From: Solwaraspora sp. WMMD792
GTDB taxonomy: Bacteria; Actinomycetota; Actinomycetes; Mycobacteriales; Micromonosporaceae
NCBI RefSeq assembly: GCF_029626105.1
Contig: NZ_JARUBH010000009.1
Span: 4,898,001 to 4,962,000, forward strand
Direction of reading: 5' to 3'
Length of the DNA stretch: 64,000 nucleotides
The notes under the pieces are model-generated. The model worked only from the letters and a program-made list of their open reading frames with translations. It had not been told where the DNA came from and ran no database searches. The stretch's first letter is position 1. Every line of letters begins with the position of its first letter. Position numbers and translations under genes: made by a program. Positions 28,196 to 35,523 of this stretch are shown piece after piece.

Positions 28196-28212
28196 TGTTC
28201 GAAGATCGAACA
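28196..28212. promoter_or_regulatory. Palindrome at the left flank of the IS element
   Basis: TGTTCGA (28196-28202) and TCGAACA (28206-28212) form a perfect 7-3-7 inverted repeat ending one base before the IS. It may be the former operator of the regulator gene now on the other side of the IS. Confidence 0.5.
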
Positions 28213-28275
28213 GTGAGCCTTTTCCAAGCTGATCTTGCAGGTCAGGGCGGGCGCAGCAAGCCCGGAGAGCGATGA

Positions 28276-28352
28276 GGGCGAGGCTCCAGGTAAGACAGCA
28301 GTCGACCAAGATCCGATGCCCCGACCGGGAGCCTCGCCCGTGCTGTCTTACC
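28276..28352 (+). promoter_or_regulatory. Two mutually exclusive stems over the transposase start (copy 1)
   Basis: Segment A GGGCGAGGCTCC (28276-28287) pairs with A' GGAGCCTCGCCC (28328-28339). Segment B GGTAAGACAGCA (28289-28300) pairs with B' TGCTGTCTTACC (28341-28352). The order A-B-A'-B' means the two 12-bp stems compete. B' overlaps the GTG start codon at 28340. Copy 2 keeps both stems with a compensatory change in B/B'. Confidence 0.7.
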
Positions 28353-29122
28353 CCTCCACGATCCCGCTGTCCAGCCGCACCCTCAACCACCTCACCGACC
28401 TCATCCGAGCCCACCGCAACCAGCATCGATCCCGATGGCGGCGCCTCGACCCCGGCCGCCAGGCACTACTCGCCCTGGCCCACCTACGCAACGGCGACAC
28501 CTACACCCGGCTCGCCGCCGGGTTCGCCGTCGGCGTCGCCACCGCCTGGCGGTACGTGCAGGAAGCGATCGCCCTGCTCGCCGCGGTCGCCGAGGACCTG
28601 ACCACGGCGATGCGCCGCATCCGACACCTGGCGTACACGATCCTCGACGGCACCCTGATCCCGATCGACCGAGTGGCGGACCAGAAGCCGTACTACTCCG
28701 GCAAACACCAGCGCCACGGCGTGAACGTGCAGGTCATCGCCGACGCCGCCGGCCGGCTCGTCTGGGCCTCCCGGACACTGCCGGGCTCGGCGCACGACCT
28801 CACCGCCGCCCGCGTCCACGGCATCACCCACGCGCTGACCAGCGCCCAGGTGATGACTTTCGCCGACAAGGGCTACCAGGGCGCCCGAGGCACCGTCCGC
28901 ACCCCGTTCAAGCGCCACCGCTTCCGACCGAAGCTGTCACGCCGACAGAAGACGATCAACCGGGCGCACGCGAAGATCCGAGCACACGGCGAACGGGCCA
29001 TCGCCACGCTCAAGACCTGGAAGATCCTGACCAAGCTGCGCTGCAGCCCACACCGCGCCACCGCGATCGTGCAGGCCATCCTCGTCCTGCACCACGTCGA
29101 AGCCAACCCCTACACAGGATGA
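28340..29122 (+). CDS. IS5-family transposase (copy 1)
   Basis: 260 residues from GTG 28340, the position equivalent to the ATG of copy 2; longer readings run into the leader structure. N-terminal HTH (GDTYTRLAAGFAVGVATAWR), then a DDE_Tnp_4-type catalytic domain: Asp in ILDGTLIPIDRV, Asp in TFADKGYQGARG, and Glu in GERAIATLKTW. All three acidic residues are present and the frame is intact, so it may be active. Clearly homologous to, but not identical with, the copy at 33809. Confidence 0.9.
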   Translation: MLSYPSTIPLSSRTLNHLTDLIRAHRNQHRSRWRRLDPGRQALLALAHLRNGDTYTRLAAGFAVGVATAWRYVQEAIALLAAVAEDLTTAMRRIRHLAYTILDGTLIPIDRVADQKPYYSGKHQRHGVNVQVIADAAGRLVWASRTLPGSAHDLTAARVHGITHALTSAQVMTFADKGYQGARGTVRTPFKRHRFRPKLSRRQKTINRAHAKIRAHGERAIATLKTWKILTKLRCSPHRATAIVQAILVLHHVEANPYTG

Positions 29123-29132
29123 AAATGGCTCA

Positions 29133-29909
29133 ATGATCGACTTGCAGGAGGCCATCCGCAAGGAGCGGACCGCGCGAGGGCTGTCGCAGGAGCAGCTCGG
29201 CGCGCTGGTCGGGGTGAGTGGGTCGTCGATCGGCAGCTACGAGGCGGGGCGGCTCATCCCGGTGCCGGCGATCGCCAAGGCACTCGACGGCGTCTTTGAG
29301 ACCGGCGACCGGATCCAGCGGCTGGCGGCCCAGGCGCGCGGGCAGTCAATCGCGCCGTTCCTGCGCTCGTGGGCCGAGAACGAGGCGCAGGCGAGCATCC
29401 TGCGCTACTTCGAACTCTCCGTCGTGCCGGGGCTGTTGCAGACCGAGGCGTACGCCCGACAGTTGCTCACCGACGTCGGCCCGGTTGACGACGTCGAGAC
29501 ATCGCTGGCCAACCGACTGGCCCGGCAGGAGATCATCACCCGGGCAGACAATCCGGCGCACTTCGTCGCGGTGCTGGACCGGTCCGTGCTGCACCGACAG
29601 GTCGGCTCGCCGGACGTGATGGTGGAGCAGTTGACCGCGCTCGCCGCCGCCTGTGACCGACCCAACGTTCGGGTGCACGTCGTGCCGGCCACCGCCGGCG
29701 CGTACGCCGGGCTCAACGGTCCGTTCGTGCTGGGCACGGTGCACGACCGGAGGGTGGGCTACCTGGACACCCACTTCGGCGGCGAGCCCATCGACGATCC
29801 GCAACGGGTGCGTCGGCTCGAACAGGTGTGGGAAGATGTCCGCAGCCACGCCCTGCCCATCGCGGAGTCCCGCGAGATGATCGAGAAAGCGGCGCTGACA
29901 TGGAGCTGA
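29133..29909 (+). CDS. XRE helix-turn-helix regulator with DUF5753 domain, 5' end replaced by IS
   Basis: 258 residues in the present reading. XRE HTH at the N-terminus (ARGLSQEQLGALVGVSGSSI GSYEAG split over residues 14-39) and a DUF5753 domain (YFELSVVPGLLQTEAYARQL to the C-terminus). Such proteins pair with small DUF397 proteins in actinomycete regulatory modules. The A of the ATG at 29133 is the first base after the IS, so the native ribosome site, and possibly several N-terminal residues, are gone. Only a distant AGGA in the IS end (29116) remains. Expression is doubtful. Confidence 0.8.
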   Translation: MIDLQEAIRKERTARGLSQEQLGALVGVSGSSIGSYEAGRLIPVPAIAKALDGVFETGDRIQRLAAQARGQSIAPFLRSWAENEAQASILRYFELSVVPGLLQTEAYARQLLTDVGPVDDVETSLANRLARQEIITRADNPAHFVAVLDRSVLHRQVGSPDVMVEQLTALAAACDRPNVRVHVVPATAGAYAGLNGPFVLGTVHDRRVGYLDTHFGGEPIDDPQRVRRLEQVWEDVRSHALPIAESREMIEKAALTWS

Positions 29910-30258: not shown

Positions 30259-31595
30259 CAGAGCCAAAGCAAAGTCAGTTGGTCATGGTTGCGATGCGTT
30301 GAGCAGGGCCGGGATGAGCATTTTGTCGGCGTGGTGACGTTCCATCACCTGCTTGATCCTGGAGTGTCCAGCGAGCCGGATGAGGGCGATGGTGAGGTTG
30401 CGCAGGGCGGCCATGGCGTGGGCGACGCCGCCGAGCCAGGCGTGGTGGGTGTCCTCGCCGAACAGGACGTCACGGACCCAGTGGACCTTGTTCTCGATCC
30501 ACCAGTGGGTGCGCACGTGTCGGGCGATCTCGGCCCCCGCGCTGGTCAGGCTGGTGATGCCGTGGACGATCTGTTTGCTGATCCGTTGCCCGTCCGGGGC
30601 GTACACGTCACGGCGGAGCCGGAACACCGTGGGGAAGTCGACGCCGGTGGCGGGTGCCGTCCAGATGGTGCGGGTGGCCCGACAGCCGCTGCGGCGTTCG
30701 GTGTCGGTGTGGTCGCTGGTCGCGGCCGTGGCGGCGGGTAGCCGGTCGGTGATCGCGGCCAGCAGCGCGGGCCTGTTGCCCTTCACGGTGAACACGTAGT
30801 CCGCCTCTCGGTTCCGCAGGTAGGTGGCGGTGTCGCCGCTGGGGTGCGCGGCGTCGGCGGTGATCACCGTGCCGGCGACCTCGACGTGATCGAGCAACGC
30901 CCGGATCTGGGTGACCTCGGTGGTGCCGGCCGGGACCAGTACCTGGGCGACGACCACCGCGGTGTCGTGGCGCATCGCGGCGAACAACTGCACGTCGACC
31001 CCGTCCGGTCCGCCCGAGTGGCGGACGGTCTTACCATCCACCGCCAGCCCGCACTGGTCGGCCGGTGGGGCGAGTCGGGTGGCCAGCCAGGCGCTGACGA
31101 GGCGGTCCACCATGGCCGCGTCGACCGCTTCGACCACCCGGCGCAGCGTGTCGCGGCCCGGCGCGACGCGGACCCCGAGCACCGGATGCCGGCGGGCGCC
31201 AGCGGCGGCCAGCAGCGGCTGCGGCAACTCGGCCACCCGGTCGGCGGCCTGCCGGAAGTTACGGGCTCCGCACAGCAACGCCATCGTCAGCACGGTCAAC
31301 ACCGCCGCGAGCCGGTGCCGGACGCCCCGCGCCTTCCGTGGATCGGTGACCTGCCCGAACAGTGTCGCCAGCGCGGTGACCTGCCGGGTGTCCACCTCCC
31401 CGCGATCATCGGTGACGGTGTCGAACGCGGCGTGGGAGACTGACACGAGCGGCCTTTCTTTGCAGACGACGACTGGCGTAGGAACCTTCATCGTCTACTT
31501 GGGAAGGCCGCGCTCGTTCACCACCCTCGGACCAGACCTGCGGACACCCTCCTCACCAGGCAAAACGAAGATCAACTAACTTTGCTTTGGCTCTG
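30259..31595 (-). mobile_element. ISAs1-family insertion sequence with perfect 10-bp target duplication
   Basis: The 1,337-bp element has terminal inverted repeats beginning CAGAGCCAAAGCAAAGT at both ends. It is flanked by the direct repeat GCACCGTTCC at 30249-30258 and 31596-31605. The clean duplication indicates a simple and fairly recent insertion. Confidence 0.92.
30283..31446 (-). CDS. ISAs1-family transposase
   Basis: 387 residues from GTG 31446, which has GAAAGG upstream; an ATG at 31491 would extend it by 15 residues. N-terminal DDE_Tnp_1-associated region (LFGQVTDPRKARGVRHRLAA), then catalytic Asp in LAVDGKTVRHSGG, Asp in ITADAAHPS, and Glu in HWWIENKVHWVRDVLFGED. The frame is intact and all catalytic residues are present. 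Confidence 0.92.
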   Translation of the reverse strand: MSVSHAAFDTVTDDRGEVDTRQVTALATLFGQVTDPRKARGVRHRLAAVLTVLTMALLCGARNFRQAADRVAELPQPLLAAAGARRHPVLGVRVAPGRDTLRRVVEAVDAAMVDRLVSAWLATRLAPPADQCGLAVDGKTVRHSGGPDGVDVQLFAAMRHDTAVVVAQVLVPAGTTEVTQIRALLDHVEVAGTVITADAAHPSGDTATYLRNREADYVFTVKGNRPALLAAITDRLPAATAATSDHTDTERRSGCRATRTIWTAPATGVDFPTVFRLRRDVYAPDGQRISKQIVHGITSLTSAGAEIARHVRTHWWIENKVHWVRDVLFGEDTHHAWLGGVAHAMAALRNLTIALIRLAGHSRIKQVMERHHADKMLIPALLNASQP

Positions 31596-32195: not shown

Positions 32196-32747
32196 TTAGC
32201 GGAGGTGCCTGCGGATTTCCGCCGTGAACTGCGGTAGGCCGGCGCGTTCGAGCAGTGGCAGGAGTGCGGCGACGGTCGTCGGCTCGCGTCGATACGAGGC
32301 GGCCTGTTGTTCGAGGATCTCGATAGTCAGGCCGGGGTAGAGATCGAGTTGATCGAGAAGGAAGTCGTCGGGGTGGACCGCGAGGATGTCGTACGGCTTC
32401 AACGCAGATTCGGGGAAGTCTCGAAGGTTGAAGGTGACGATGACCTCGGCGTTGGCGCGCACGGCGGCGGCGAGGATGTGACGGTCCTTCGGATCATTCG
32501 ACATACCATCAATGAGTGTCTCGTACCCGGTAACCATTGCGTCCGGGAACGTGCGAACCATGTGACCGATACGTCGGTCAACCCGGCCGACGTCGATGCC
32601 TGCCGCGACCAGATTGCGGTGCAGTTCTGTGTGGATGTCAGTCGACCACAGTGGGCGATACGCCTCGGCCTCGGCGAGTCGGAGAAGGGTGTCGCAGAGG
32701 TAGACCGGGTAGAGCACACAGGTGTCGAGTAGGGCGGGAAAGGCCAC
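32196..32747 (-). CDS. PIN-domain toxin (VapC-like ribonuclease)
   Basis: 183 residues, ATG at 32747. PIN-domain acidic residues: Asp8 in LLDTCVLYP, an Asp/Glu pair in STDIHTELHRNL, and DPKDRHILAAAV with VTFNLRDFP. Such proteins cleave RNA. It lies 12 bases after the HTH gene in the same direction; this HTH-PIN order is the usual antitoxin-toxin layout. The longer C-terminus (residues 130-183) is typical of this sub-family. The frame is intact. Confidence 0.85.
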   Translation of the reverse strand: MAFPALLDTCVLYPVYLCDTLLRLAEAEAYRPLWSTDIHTELHRNLVAAGIDVGRVDRRIGHMVRTFPDAMVTGYETLIDGMSNDPKDRHILAAAVRANAEVIVTFNLRDFPESALKPYDILAVHPDDFLLDQLDLYPGLTIEILEQQAASYRREPTTVAALLPLLERAGLPQFTAEIRRHLR

Positions 32748-32759
32748 GACTGGTCTGCC

Positions 32760-33230
32760 TCACCTGGTCCGCTTGGGCGTCGCGGCCAGATCGTAGAGAC
32801 CGTCTTCCTCAGCTTCGGTGGCCATCTGGTCGAGAGTTTGGCGGCGTTCGCGGCGGGTGCGTTCGCGATAGTCGAGGATGTCGCGAAGCATGACCCGGCG
32901 GTGTCGTCCGCGCATGGTGTAGGAGATCTCGCCGTCGGTCAACAGCCGTACGAGAGTGGGGCGCGAGATGTTGAGCAGGTCGGCAGCTTCCTGCGTGGTG
33001 AGCATGGTGTTGTGTGGCGCGATCGAGACTGCCATCCCCTGTGACAGGGCGGTCACCACGTCCCGTAGTACCCCATACAGCTCATCCGGGATGTTTAGGT
33101 AGGTGCCGTCCGGCCCGATGAGTCTTGCCTGAATGGGCGGAGTCGCGTCGGCCATACCACGGGCGAACCTGGCGAGATCGGAGCCGTCCTCTGGCGGGAG
33201 GACTGTCCGCTCGCGAAGCGCGTTGACCAT
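32760..33230 (-). CDS. Excisionase-type HTH antitoxin of the PIN toxin
   Basis: 156 residues, ATG at 33230. An N-terminal region (LIGPDGTYLNIPDELYGVLR) is followed by a MerR/excisionase-type helix-turn-helix: LTTQEAADLLNISRPTLVRL, GRHRRVMLRDILDYRER. An acidic C-terminal tail (MATEAEEDGLYDL) could bind the toxin. First gene of a two-gene toxin-antitoxin operon, probably autoregulated through the AT-rich DNA at 33231-33275. Confidence 0.82.
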   Translation of the reverse strand: MVNALRERTVLPPEDGSDLARFARGMADATPPIQARLIGPDGTYLNIPDELYGVLRDVVTALSQGMAVSIAPHNTMLTTQEAADLLNISRPTLVRLLTDGEISYTMRGRHRRVMLRDILDYRERTRRERRQTLDQMATEAEEDGLYDLAATPKRTR

Positions 33231-33525: not shown

Positions 33526-33683
33526 GAGGTGAAGGCCCAGATCTCGGCTTCCTCCGCCGGGCTCGGGCAGGTCGTCGGCGGCGAACGTGCCGAGCAGGAG
33601 GTCGAGCGCCCGTTCGAGGGTGACGATTTCCCGCCGGTACAGCCGCAGGACCGCCTGGCCGCCACCCGCTCGCCGATACTCAC
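33522..33683 (-). pseudogene. Antitoxin remnant truncated by IS copy 2
   Basis: One minus-strand frame reads LYRREIVTLERALDLLLGTF, a helical segment typical of actinobacterial antitoxins paired with such PIN proteins. The end EEAEIWAFTS then stop is in another frame, so a frameshift lies between (around 33555-33570). The N-terminus is cut by the IS at 33684. It overlaps the toxin start by GTGA. Confidence 0.5.
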
Positions 33684-33747
33684 TGAGCCTTTTCCAAGCT
33701 GATCTTGCAGCTCAGGGCGGATGCGGTAGGCCCGCTGATCGATGGGT

Positions 33748-33821
33748 GCGAGGCTCCAGGTAGGACAGCTGTCGACCAAGACTCGAAGCCCCGACCGGGA
33801 GCCTCGCCATGCTGTCCTACC
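33748..33821 (+). promoter_or_regulatory. Two mutually exclusive stems over the transposase start (copy 2)
   Basis: A GCGAGGCTCC (33748-33757) pairs with A' GGAGCCTCGC (33798-33807). B GGTAGGACAGC (33759-33769) pairs with B' GCTGTCCTACC (33811-33821). B' overlaps the last base of the ATG at 33809. Relative to copy 1 an A-to-G in B is matched by T-to-C in B'. Confidence 0.7.
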
Positions 33822-34591
33822 CCGCCACGATCTCGTTGTCCAGCCGCACCCTGAACCACCTGGCCGAACGCATCCGCAGCCACCGTAAGCAGCGCCGATC
33901 GCGGTGGCGGCGCCTCGAACCCGGCCGGCAGGCGCTGCTCGCCCTGGCCCATCTGCGCAACGGCGACACCTACACCCGACTCGCGGCCGGCTTCGAGATC
34001 GGCGTCGCCACCGCCTGGCGCTACGTCCAGGAAGCGATAGCCCTGCTCGCGACGGCCGCCGATGACCTGGCCACCGCCATGGTACGGATCCGCCGACTGG
34101 CGTACGCGATCCTGGACGGCACCCTGATTCCGATCGATCGGGTCGCCGACCAGCGACCCTACTACTCTGGAAAACACAAGCACCACGGCGTGAATGTGCA
34201 GGTCATCGCCGATGCCGCTGGCCGGCTCGTCTGGGCTTCACCGGCGCTGCCCGGTTCGGTTCATGACCTGACCGCAGCCAGGACCTACGGCATTATCGAT
34301 GCGCTGACCAGGGCGGACGTGATGACCTTCGCCGATAAGGGCTACCAAGGAGCCCGCGGCAGCGTGCGCACTCCGTTCAAGCGACGCCGCTTCCGCCCGA
34401 AGCTGTCACGCCGGCAGAAGGCCATCAACCGCGCCCACGCGAAGATCCGCGCCCGCGGTGAACGCGCAATCGCCACCCTCAAGGCCTGGAAGATCCTGGC
34501 CAAGCTGCGCTGCTGTCCACGGCGAGCGACCGCGATCGTGCAGGCCATCCTCGTTCTGCACCACGTCGAGACCGACCGCTACGCAGCATGA
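33809..34591 (+). CDS. IS5-family transposase (copy 2)
   Basis: 260 residues, ATG at 33809, same length as copy 1. Catalytic Asp in AILDGTLIPIDRV, Asp in TFADKGYQGARG and Glu in GERAIATLKAWKIL are present, and the frame is intact. Many conservative differences from copy 1 lie in the N-terminal HTH region (NHLAERIRSHRKQRRSRW). The element truncates an antitoxin gene on its left. The 278 bases on its right, up to the vapB start at 34880, contain no clear gene. Confidence 0.9.
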   Translation: MLSYPATISLSSRTLNHLAERIRSHRKQRRSRWRRLEPGRQALLALAHLRNGDTYTRLAAGFEIGVATAWRYVQEAIALLATAADDLATAMVRIRRLAYAILDGTLIPIDRVADQRPYYSGKHKHHGVNVQVIADAAGRLVWASPALPGSVHDLTAARTYGIIDALTRADVMTFADKGYQGARGSVRTPFKRRRFRPKLSRRQKAINRAHAKIRARGERAIATLKAWKILAKLRCCPRRATAIVQAILVLHHVETDRYAA

Positions 34592-34837
34592 AAAGGGCTC
34601 ATTGCTGACCCGCGTTGCAAACCTGCCTGATCGCCGAGCATCCGGCGGGGCGACTCGCAGCCTGTCGGCGTCCTCGGTGTCCGCGCTGGCGGCTGCGGAG
34701 ACGACCCGGTCCCGCCTTCGACCGAGTTCGCCGGCTCGATCAACATCGACTTCCGGCGCGGCACCTGCATGCTGGCAGCGCCGGCCGACGACGAACGGGG
34801 AATGGTCGTGGGGATCAGCACCGAGGCCGGTAGAGGT

Positions 34838-34879: not shown

Positions 34880-35098
34880 TTGAAGACGGTGATCGACCTG
34901 GACGAGGAGTTGCTGGACCGCGCCCGTCGTGAACTCGGGACCAGCACCAAGAAGGAGACGATCCACGAGGCGCTGCGTCTGGTCGCCGAACGCGGGGCCC
35001 GACTGGCTGCGATCCAGGAGCTCATGTCCATCGACCGGGACTGGGACGGCATCGTCGATGACGACAAGACGCCCACCAGCGGCCGAGACGCGGCGTGA
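34880..35098 (+). CDS. vapB: VapB-family antitoxin
   Basis: 72 residues, TTG at 34880. N-terminal ribbon-helix-helix (MKTVIDLDEELLDRARRELG, TKKETIHEALRLVAER) binds DNA; the acidic C-terminal tail (DRDWDGIVDDDKTP) would wrap the toxin. It overlaps vapC by four bases (GTGA). Intact type II antitoxin. Confidence 0.9.
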   Translation: MKTVIDLDEELLDRARRELGTSTKKETIHEALRLVAERGARLAAIQELMSIDRDWDGIVDDDKTPTSGRDAA

Positions 35099-35523
35099 AC
35101 ATCGCCCGAGGGCTGTACCTGATCGATACCTCGGCCTGGGCCCGGATGTCCGCACCGGCAGTGAACAAGCGGCTCGTCATGATCCTGCAGGAAGGGGCAG
35201 CAGCGACCTGTCTCCCGCTGGACCTCGAAGACGGTCGCAGCGCTCGCAACTTCCGGGACGCGATGGCAATCCGCGCCCGCCGGGCCGAAATCATGACTGA
35301 TCTGCCGATCAACTCGGCAGTCGCCACTCGGGCCCGGGACATCCAGGTAGCGCTGACCAGACGCGGGTACCACCGGGCGGCCAGCCCGGTCGATCTGATC
35401 GCCGCCGCAGCAGCGGCTGAGCACGGCGCGACAGTCCTGCACTACGACCGTGACTTCGACCTGATCACCGAGGCCGGCGGACCGCGCAGTGAGTGGATCG
35501 CGCCCGCCGGGACACTTCGGTAG
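35095..35523 (+). CDS. vapC: VapC-family PIN toxin
   Basis: 142 residues, GTG at 35095. PIN acidic residues: Asp11 in LYLIDTSAWAR, Glu in CLPLDLEDGR region, Asp in SPVDLIAAAAAAEHGA and Asp pair in LHYDRDFDLI. It is an endoribonuclease, probably acting on tRNA or rRNA. Intact, translationally coupled to vapB. Confidence 0.9.
   Translation: MNIARGLYLIDTSAWARMSAPAVNKRLVMILQEGAAATCLPLDLEDGRSARNFRDAMAIRARRAEIMTDLPINSAVATRARDIQVALTRRGYHRAASPVDLIAAAAAAEHGATVLHYDRDFDLITEAGGPRSEWIAPAGTLR

Follow-up and report, generated by a model that had tools for sequence, protein, structure and literature searches.

Two copies of an IS5-like element

The window, a 64,000-nucleotide stretch of a Solwaraspora sp. 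WMMD792 contig, carries two insertion sequence (IS) copies of the same family, each with a single ORF that encodes a transposase.

28215-29131, + strand: IS copy 1, 917 bp, inverted ends GAGCC...GGCTC, one ORF
28340-29122, + strand: transposase of copy 1, GTG start, HTH_Tnp_4 and DDE_Tnp_4 domains
33685-34600, + strand: IS copy 2, 916 bp, inverted ends GAGCC...GGCTC, one ORF
33809-34591, + strand: transposase of copy 2, ATG start, HTH_Tnp_4 and DDE_Tnp_4 domains

The terminal inverted repeats of copy 1 (TGAGCCTTTTCC... and ...GAAAATGGCTCA) and its single ORF match the layout of the IS5 family. The Pfam models HTH_Tnp_4 and DDE_Tnp_4 both pass for the transposases, and the NCBIfam IS5 model NF033581 was the best match, with scores of 122.6 and 131.7 bits that lie under its cut-off of 140. 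The genome holds eight long copies of the element, three of them at 100% identity (rounded) to copy 1, itself included, and five at 84%, one of which ends at position 851 of 923; there are two short fragments besides.

Elements of the ISL2 group of the IS5 family generate a 3-bp target duplication, ANT. In 57 relatives, the flanks showed CA before the element in 40 and TG after it in 39, with one base N next to the element. N was identical on both flanks in 39 of the 57, which reads as C-ANT-G, a 3-bp duplication. The relatives thus appear to insert in CANTG and to duplicate ANT. The window copies have unequal N, with flanks AGT/AAT for copy 1 (28212-28214 and 29132-29134) and ACT/ATT for copy 2 (33682-33684 and 34601-34603), as if their ends had been exchanged or had mutated.

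The right end of copy 1 (29131-29135) directly abuts the ATG of a gene for an HTH_31/DUF5753 regulator (29133-29909), and this gene may therefore have been separated from its own promoter by the insertion. Copy 2 sits between PIN-domain genes, at 32196-33230 (PIN_3, beside an HTH_17 gene) and 35095-35523 (PIN), which look like toxin-antitoxin modules. Another transposase gene (DDE_Tnp_1_assoc and DDE_Tnp_1; 30283-31491) lies between the two IS copies.

Interleaved stems over the transposase start

The leader of each copy contains the arms of two stems, A and B.

28276-28287, + strand: 5' arm of stem A, copy 1; also the spacer of a proposed promoter
28289-28300, + strand: 5' arm of stem B, copy 1; has a GGT in common with A and a proposed -10, TAAGAC, at 28291-28296
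28328-28339, + strand: 3' arm A', copy 1; holds a Shine-Dalgarno-like GGGAG at 28328-28332
28341-28352, + strand: 3' arm B', copy 1; start-codon bases 2-3, codons 2-4 and the first base of codon 5
28298-28300 with 28317-28319, + strand: putative inner stem of the A fold in the computed structure, enclosing the loop TCGACCAAGAT
33748-33757, + strand: stem A, copy 2; pairs with 33798-33807
33759-33769, + strand: stem B, copy 2; proposed -10, TAGGAC, at 33761-33766
33798-33807, + strand: A', copy 2; overlapped by GGGAG at 33797-33801
33811-33821, + strand: B', copy 2; pairs with stem B of copy 2

In copy 1, A:A' and B:B' each comprise 12 bp with no mismatch, in the order A-B-A'-B' and at the coordinates originally predicted. 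When this leader was shuffled 3000 times with its dinucleotide composition preserved, any perfect 12-bp stem occurred in 2 shuffles and an interleaved pair in 0. Copy 2 had been described as having the same stems; the interleaved stems are indeed present, but they are shorter, with 10 perfect bp in A:A' (within 17-nt arms, 88%) and 11 in B:B'. Any perfect 11-bp stem was found in 12 of 3000 dinucleotide shuffles of the copy 2 leader, a count that covers B only, the 10-bp A being below the cut-off. The compensatory change noted between the copies was confirmed, A28293/T28348 in copy 1 corresponding to G33763/C33817 in copy 2. The stems are not separate in sequence, as the GGT at 28289-28291 can lengthen A by pairing with 28324-28326. 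The 3' end of B may also have an alternative partner in the inner stem, for which the 9 compensatory events of that stem, not above several poorly paired registers, speak weakly.

The leader in relatives

We collected loci from the best 80 of 188 relatives, plus 40 further regions, and from further searches of the genus (7 genomes), the family (200), the phylum (396) and one genus taken as Streptomyces (199), with no more than 30 loci from each. Searching the collected loci with tBLASTn gave 183 distinct leaders with a matching N-terminus. We retained the 154 of these that shared at least 40% identity and showed an A helix close to the start; of the 29 removed, 16 were above 40% and 13 below. 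Since this filter required the A helix and ignored B:B', pairing figures for A:A' are inflated. Removal of near-duplicates left 115 leaders, 96 with an intact-looking ORF. The 61 leaders at 64% protein identity or more are referred to as the window's clade and the remaining 54 as the other clade. From the intact leaders 56 diverse ones were chosen, and a set of 49 omits the 7 most distant of these.

The A-B-A'-B' order and its position on the start codon persisted, and the region from the left end to A was variable, the left end lying 110 to 153 bases from the start codon in 57 elements. The leader was found in relatives from several actinomycete groups. When 148 genomes drawn from the class were scanned with a leader model, 23 had matches at E 0.001, among them the genome of the window; weaker matches in this sample were not all linked to a transposase. 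In the window's own genome the model gave 8 matches at E 0.001, all at copies of this IS (150 scored of 4174 first-look candidates). Among 29 leader-model matches examined, 16 precede an ORF that matches the transposase at E 2e-9 or better. Fourteen of the 29 formed a held-out set; omitted from it were 4 that the main set already contained, 1 located at a contig end, and 10 that were weak, lacked a start codon or a transposase match, or were an additional match in one locus (L252).

Start region and coding sequence under the stems

A GGAG stretch begins at -12 to -9 in 96 of the 115 leaders and at -6 in 3, while 16 lack it; 108 of the leaders have GTG, ATG or TTG as start codon. This stretch falls within A', so A:A' would hide the Shine-Dalgarno motif. 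The last two bases of the start codon and codons 2-4 lie in B', and B:B' is predicted to cover the start codon, as had been proposed, together with these three codons. As in IS10 and IS50, upstream sequence is able to pair with the Shine-Dalgarno motif and with the start codon, to judge from the sequence and its covariation.

At codon 3, inside B', TCT makes up 39 of 57 serine codons, compared with 2.8% of the 1221 serine codons from codon 9 on. The codon tracks B: A occurs with TCT in 34 cases and G with TCC in 9, with the remainder divided among A with TCC (8), G with TCT (5) and G with TCG (1).

The loop TCGACCAAGAT (28301-28314) is kept in many Micromonospora-type and presumed Streptomyces-type leaders, and its conservation exceeds what the two stems or the coding sequence account for. 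This loop may mark where the native mRNA begins, or may serve as a binding site.

Covariation of the two stems

Covariation was tested on a MAFFT alignment built without structure information and on a transposase tree built without the first 6 codons. Across the 115 leaders, compensatory double changes numbered 21 in A (10 pairs) and 13 in B (12 pairs), against only 0-5 and 0-4 in registers displaced by 1 to 6. When these columns were matched at random, the observed count was reached in 0 of 20000 trials for A and 5 of 20000 for B. Pair-breaking changes amounted to 63 events in A and 80 in B. When 3403 8-bp registers were ranked by compensatory changes, the first 19 were all A:A' or B:B', some of the A registers among them being shifted by dropped gap columns. 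An R-scape-style null, applied pair by pair on the tree, found no single pair significant: the best A pair came close with E 0.115 and other A pairs had E >100, and the best four B pairs had E 6.6-37 (ranks 5, 6, 13 and 23 of 4753). The predicted covariation was borne out for each stem as a whole, against random matchings, but not for individual pairs.

Same-branch co-changes counted regardless of pairing (34 in A, 17 in B) were reached in 0 of 3000 runs of a branch null. For B these were not register-specific, since registers slid by -1, +2 and +3 gave 16, 15 and 17, and 575 of 20000 random matchings reached 17. The value of 7.1 given by the branch null thus understates chance, and for B this test was not relied on.

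In a pair count over both stems, 86.7% of cells were paired in the 56 leaders (A 88.0%, B 85.6%), against 40-45% in slid registers, with 128 two-sided cells against 17-30; in the 49-leader set 88.6% were paired, against 40-46%. RNAalifold predicted B:B' alone for the 49 of 56 leaders, with two-sided changes at 5 of its 11 pairs, and for all 56 it predicted A:A' and not B:B'. At least 10 of the 12 B pairs form in 94 of the 115 leaders and fewer than 8 in 10. Own B' paired with B better than did the B' of leaders with a different B in 101 of 115. In the held-out leaders (n=14), B formed 9.14 of 11 pairs with its own B' and 8.50 with those of others, own being better in 9. One of these leaders (L266, 1501-1593) has GGTGGAC and GTCCACC, in which the near-constant TA of B and its partner in B' are altered on both sides, a change that turns a conserved Tyr codon into His. 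Of the one-sided changes in B, 46 produced G.U and 29 produced A.C (p 0.032; outside GGT, p 0.07); in A the corresponding numbers, 31 and 24, did not differ significantly (p 0.21).

The arms could instead be DNA sites, either operators or subterminal transposase sites, with RNA folding incidental: the arms are inverted, a block of sequence close to the left end is strongly conserved, covariation is also shown by inverted sites, and the conserved loop TCGACCAAGAT is left unexplained by the two stems. However, A' and B' stay fixed at the start codon while the left end shifts between 110 and 153 bases from it, A' contains the Shine-Dalgarno motif, and B' retains a codon that is rare in these genes. 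The excess of G.U over A.C in B argues weakly in the same direction, and an interleaved order would be unusual for an operator. We consider the DNA-site explanation unlikely.

Computed folds and opening costs

The original prediction held that the stems compete. When one stem was penalised, the median difference between A fold and B fold in the window's clade (61 leaders) was -0.2 kcal/mol, which supports two alternative folds of similar computed energy. In the other 54 leaders it was -11.0 kcal/mol, with A dominant. Of the 115 leaders, 83 had 6 or more A pairs in the unconstrained fold, 31 had 6 or more B pairs, and 0 had both, with a program that permits no pseudoknot. With A penalised, only 81 of 115 arrived at a B fold with 6 or more pairs. 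Computed on a longer RNA, the energies were -41.4 (A fold) and -45.5 kcal/mol (B fold) for copy 1 and -46.1 and -49.9 kcal/mol for copy 2.

The dominance of A in distant relatives would suit a simpler model in which only A:A' matters, with B conserved as the -10, B' conserved as coding sequence, and the complementarity of the two a by-product. The lack of significance of single B pairs in the strict test and the RNAalifold result on all 56 leaders also fit this model. Against it stand the 13 compensatory events in B, with 0-4 in slid registers and 5 of 20000 random matchings reaching that count, the tracking of B by TCT or TCC at codon 3, and the B:B' prediction of RNAalifold on 49 of 56 leaders. 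We regard B as a by-product of this kind as quite unlikely.

Both stems could also coexist as an H-type pseudoknot, for which A-B-A'-B' is the topology, and both do covary. Each linker, about 1 nt long, would need to bridge 12 bp, though, and A and B share GGT, so that full simultaneous pairing looks sterically implausible; this concerns full and not partial coexistence. We infer that the stems exclude each other and hold the pseudoknot to be decidedly unlikely.

We computed the cost of opening the start region (-14 to +9) with arms intact or scrambled, as clade medians and for copy 1 (all in kcal/mol).

Window's clade: intact 18.9; A scrambled 19.2; B scrambled 17.8; both scrambled 13.0; RNA starting after B 11.3
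Copy 1: intact 18.2; A scrambled 16.2; B scrambled 20.9; both scrambled 11.8; RNA starting after B 13.0
Other clade: intact 22.2; A scrambled 12.4; B scrambled 19.3; both scrambled 10.5; RNA starting after B 9.6

The full leader was costlier to open than the truncated one in 112 of 115 leaders, and the RNA starting after B is still predicted to form a local hairpin at the Shine-Dalgarno motif. These costs suggest that in the window's clade either stem would lock the start region and that only the loss of both would open it, although scrambling A alone does lower the cost somewhat in copy 1 (18.2 to 16.2). Outside this clade the lock would be carried by A.

A:A' had been put forward as the state that leaves the start free. 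The near-equal energies within the window's clade and the conserved loop between B and A' would suit a true on/off switch of this kind, possibly one that responds to a ligand or factor at the loop. This part of the original prediction failed: A' contains the Shine-Dalgarno motif, so A:A' is not an open state, and in the window's clade the start region is costly to open with either single stem. Outside that clade, moreover, A is dominant by about 11 kcal/mol. Such a switch is very improbable, and a redundant lock appears a better fit to the computed costs; the covarying stems, the alternative folds and the likeness to IS10 and IS50 stood. A reading of the leader as a transcription terminator was dropped, as scans for terminators found no terminator-like site.

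A candidate promoter within the 5' arms

A strict promoter scan found none. We then used a test devised post hoc, after seeing the sequences, of the distance from TTGACA-like hexamers to the TA that opens B. In 60 upstream regions (60%-identity clusters of 153 leaders), this distance peaked at 16-18 nt. In these regions 21 hexamers with spacers of 16-18 matched TTGACA at 4 or more of 6 positions, compared with a mean of 4.4 and a maximum of 10 in 300 shuffles and a maximum of 11 in other three-wide windows. At 5 or more of 6 positions there were 8 hexamers (shuffles: mean 0.39, maximum 3; other windows: maximum 1). TCGACA at 17 and CTGACA at 18 were typical forms. Candidate -10 forms include TAAGAC, TAGGAC, TAGACG, TAGAAC and TACAAC, all lacking the T at the sixth position. 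Pairing with a Tyr codon also preserves the TA, which is therefore not independent evidence of a promoter. In the window copies the -35 at spacer 16 is poor, with 2 of 6 matches in copy 1 and 3 of 6 in copy 2. On the strength of the spacing in relatives, the element's promoter may lie within the 5' arms.

A proposed RNA lock on transposase translation

Taken together, we judge it probable that the leader acts in cis as an RNA lock, which keeps outside messages from being translated into transposase and leaves the element's own mRNA unlocked. Messages entering the element from outside would carry both A and B. In such a message either A:A' would hide the Shine-Dalgarno motif, or B:B' would hide the start codon together with codons 2-4. 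Where the two folds have similar computed energies, as in the window's clade, these alternatives would back each other up. The promoter would have its -35 directly before A, with A as the spacer and TAnnnn at the opening of B as the -10. The element's own mRNA would then start at about 28302-28306, in the conserved loop TCGACCAAGAT and past B, and hence would lack the lock.

A more specific proposal, which we offer tentatively, is that this is an undescribed class of actinomycete IS leader RNA, in which the 5' arms of two mutually exclusive hairpins, one of them with a coding 3' arm, also function as promoter spacer and -10, so that self-made messages start past the lock and foreign ones carry a redundant lock.

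Relation to known systems and significance

Fold-back inhibition of read-through transposase mRNA operates in IS10/Tn10 and IS50/Tn5, and fold-back protection of this type is known for a few elements. The IS10/IS50-like logic originally suggested for the leader is supported: as in those elements, arms present only in outside transcripts would hide the transposase start, and the native promoter would lie inside the element. In contrast to IS10 and IS50, there are two interleaved and seemingly exclusive stems, one with its 3' arm within the coding sequence, the 5' arms would be promoter spacer and -10, and the transposase family differs.

The IS200 leader is described as having a stem-loop that occludes the ribosome binding site and a separate stem-loop that terminates impinging transcripts (PMC3196728). 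Compared with that description, the leader reported here is similar in its predicted stem-loop over the ribosome binding site and in having a further part that would deal with impinging transcription, and differs in having no terminator-like site and in a second covarying stem that uses coding sequence. In ISPpu9, of the IS110/IS492 family, structure in the 5'-UTR of the mRNA is reported to govern transposase expression, with two small RNAs involved (PMC8450116); the 5'-UTR structure is alike in kind, and the IS family and the two small RNAs, as given in that account, set ISPpu9 apart. IS50 with Hfq is presented as another form of transposase control (PMC4265352), and as described in these sources ISPpu9 and IS50/Hfq show its variety. 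A 'Transposase-resistance' RNA motif appears as a table entry (PMC2864571); this candidate cis-regulatory RNA is tied to transposase genes by its name, and the comparison is by name only.

Searching Rfam with the copy 1 region and five relatives gave no family at gathering score, copy 1 having just two microRNA matches, on the opposite strand (E 3.7 and 4.2). A literature search that covered titles, the starts of abstracts and some passages, largely of open-access papers, found no paper on this leader.

Insertion sequences in transcribed regions must avoid making transposase from the messages of other genes. The lock model makes concrete predictions on transcription start, redundancy and covariation. 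If it is true, fold-back protection would extend to an IS family of several actinomycete groups, and the design would be an economical one, with promoter, RNA lock and coding sequence combined in a few dozen bases.
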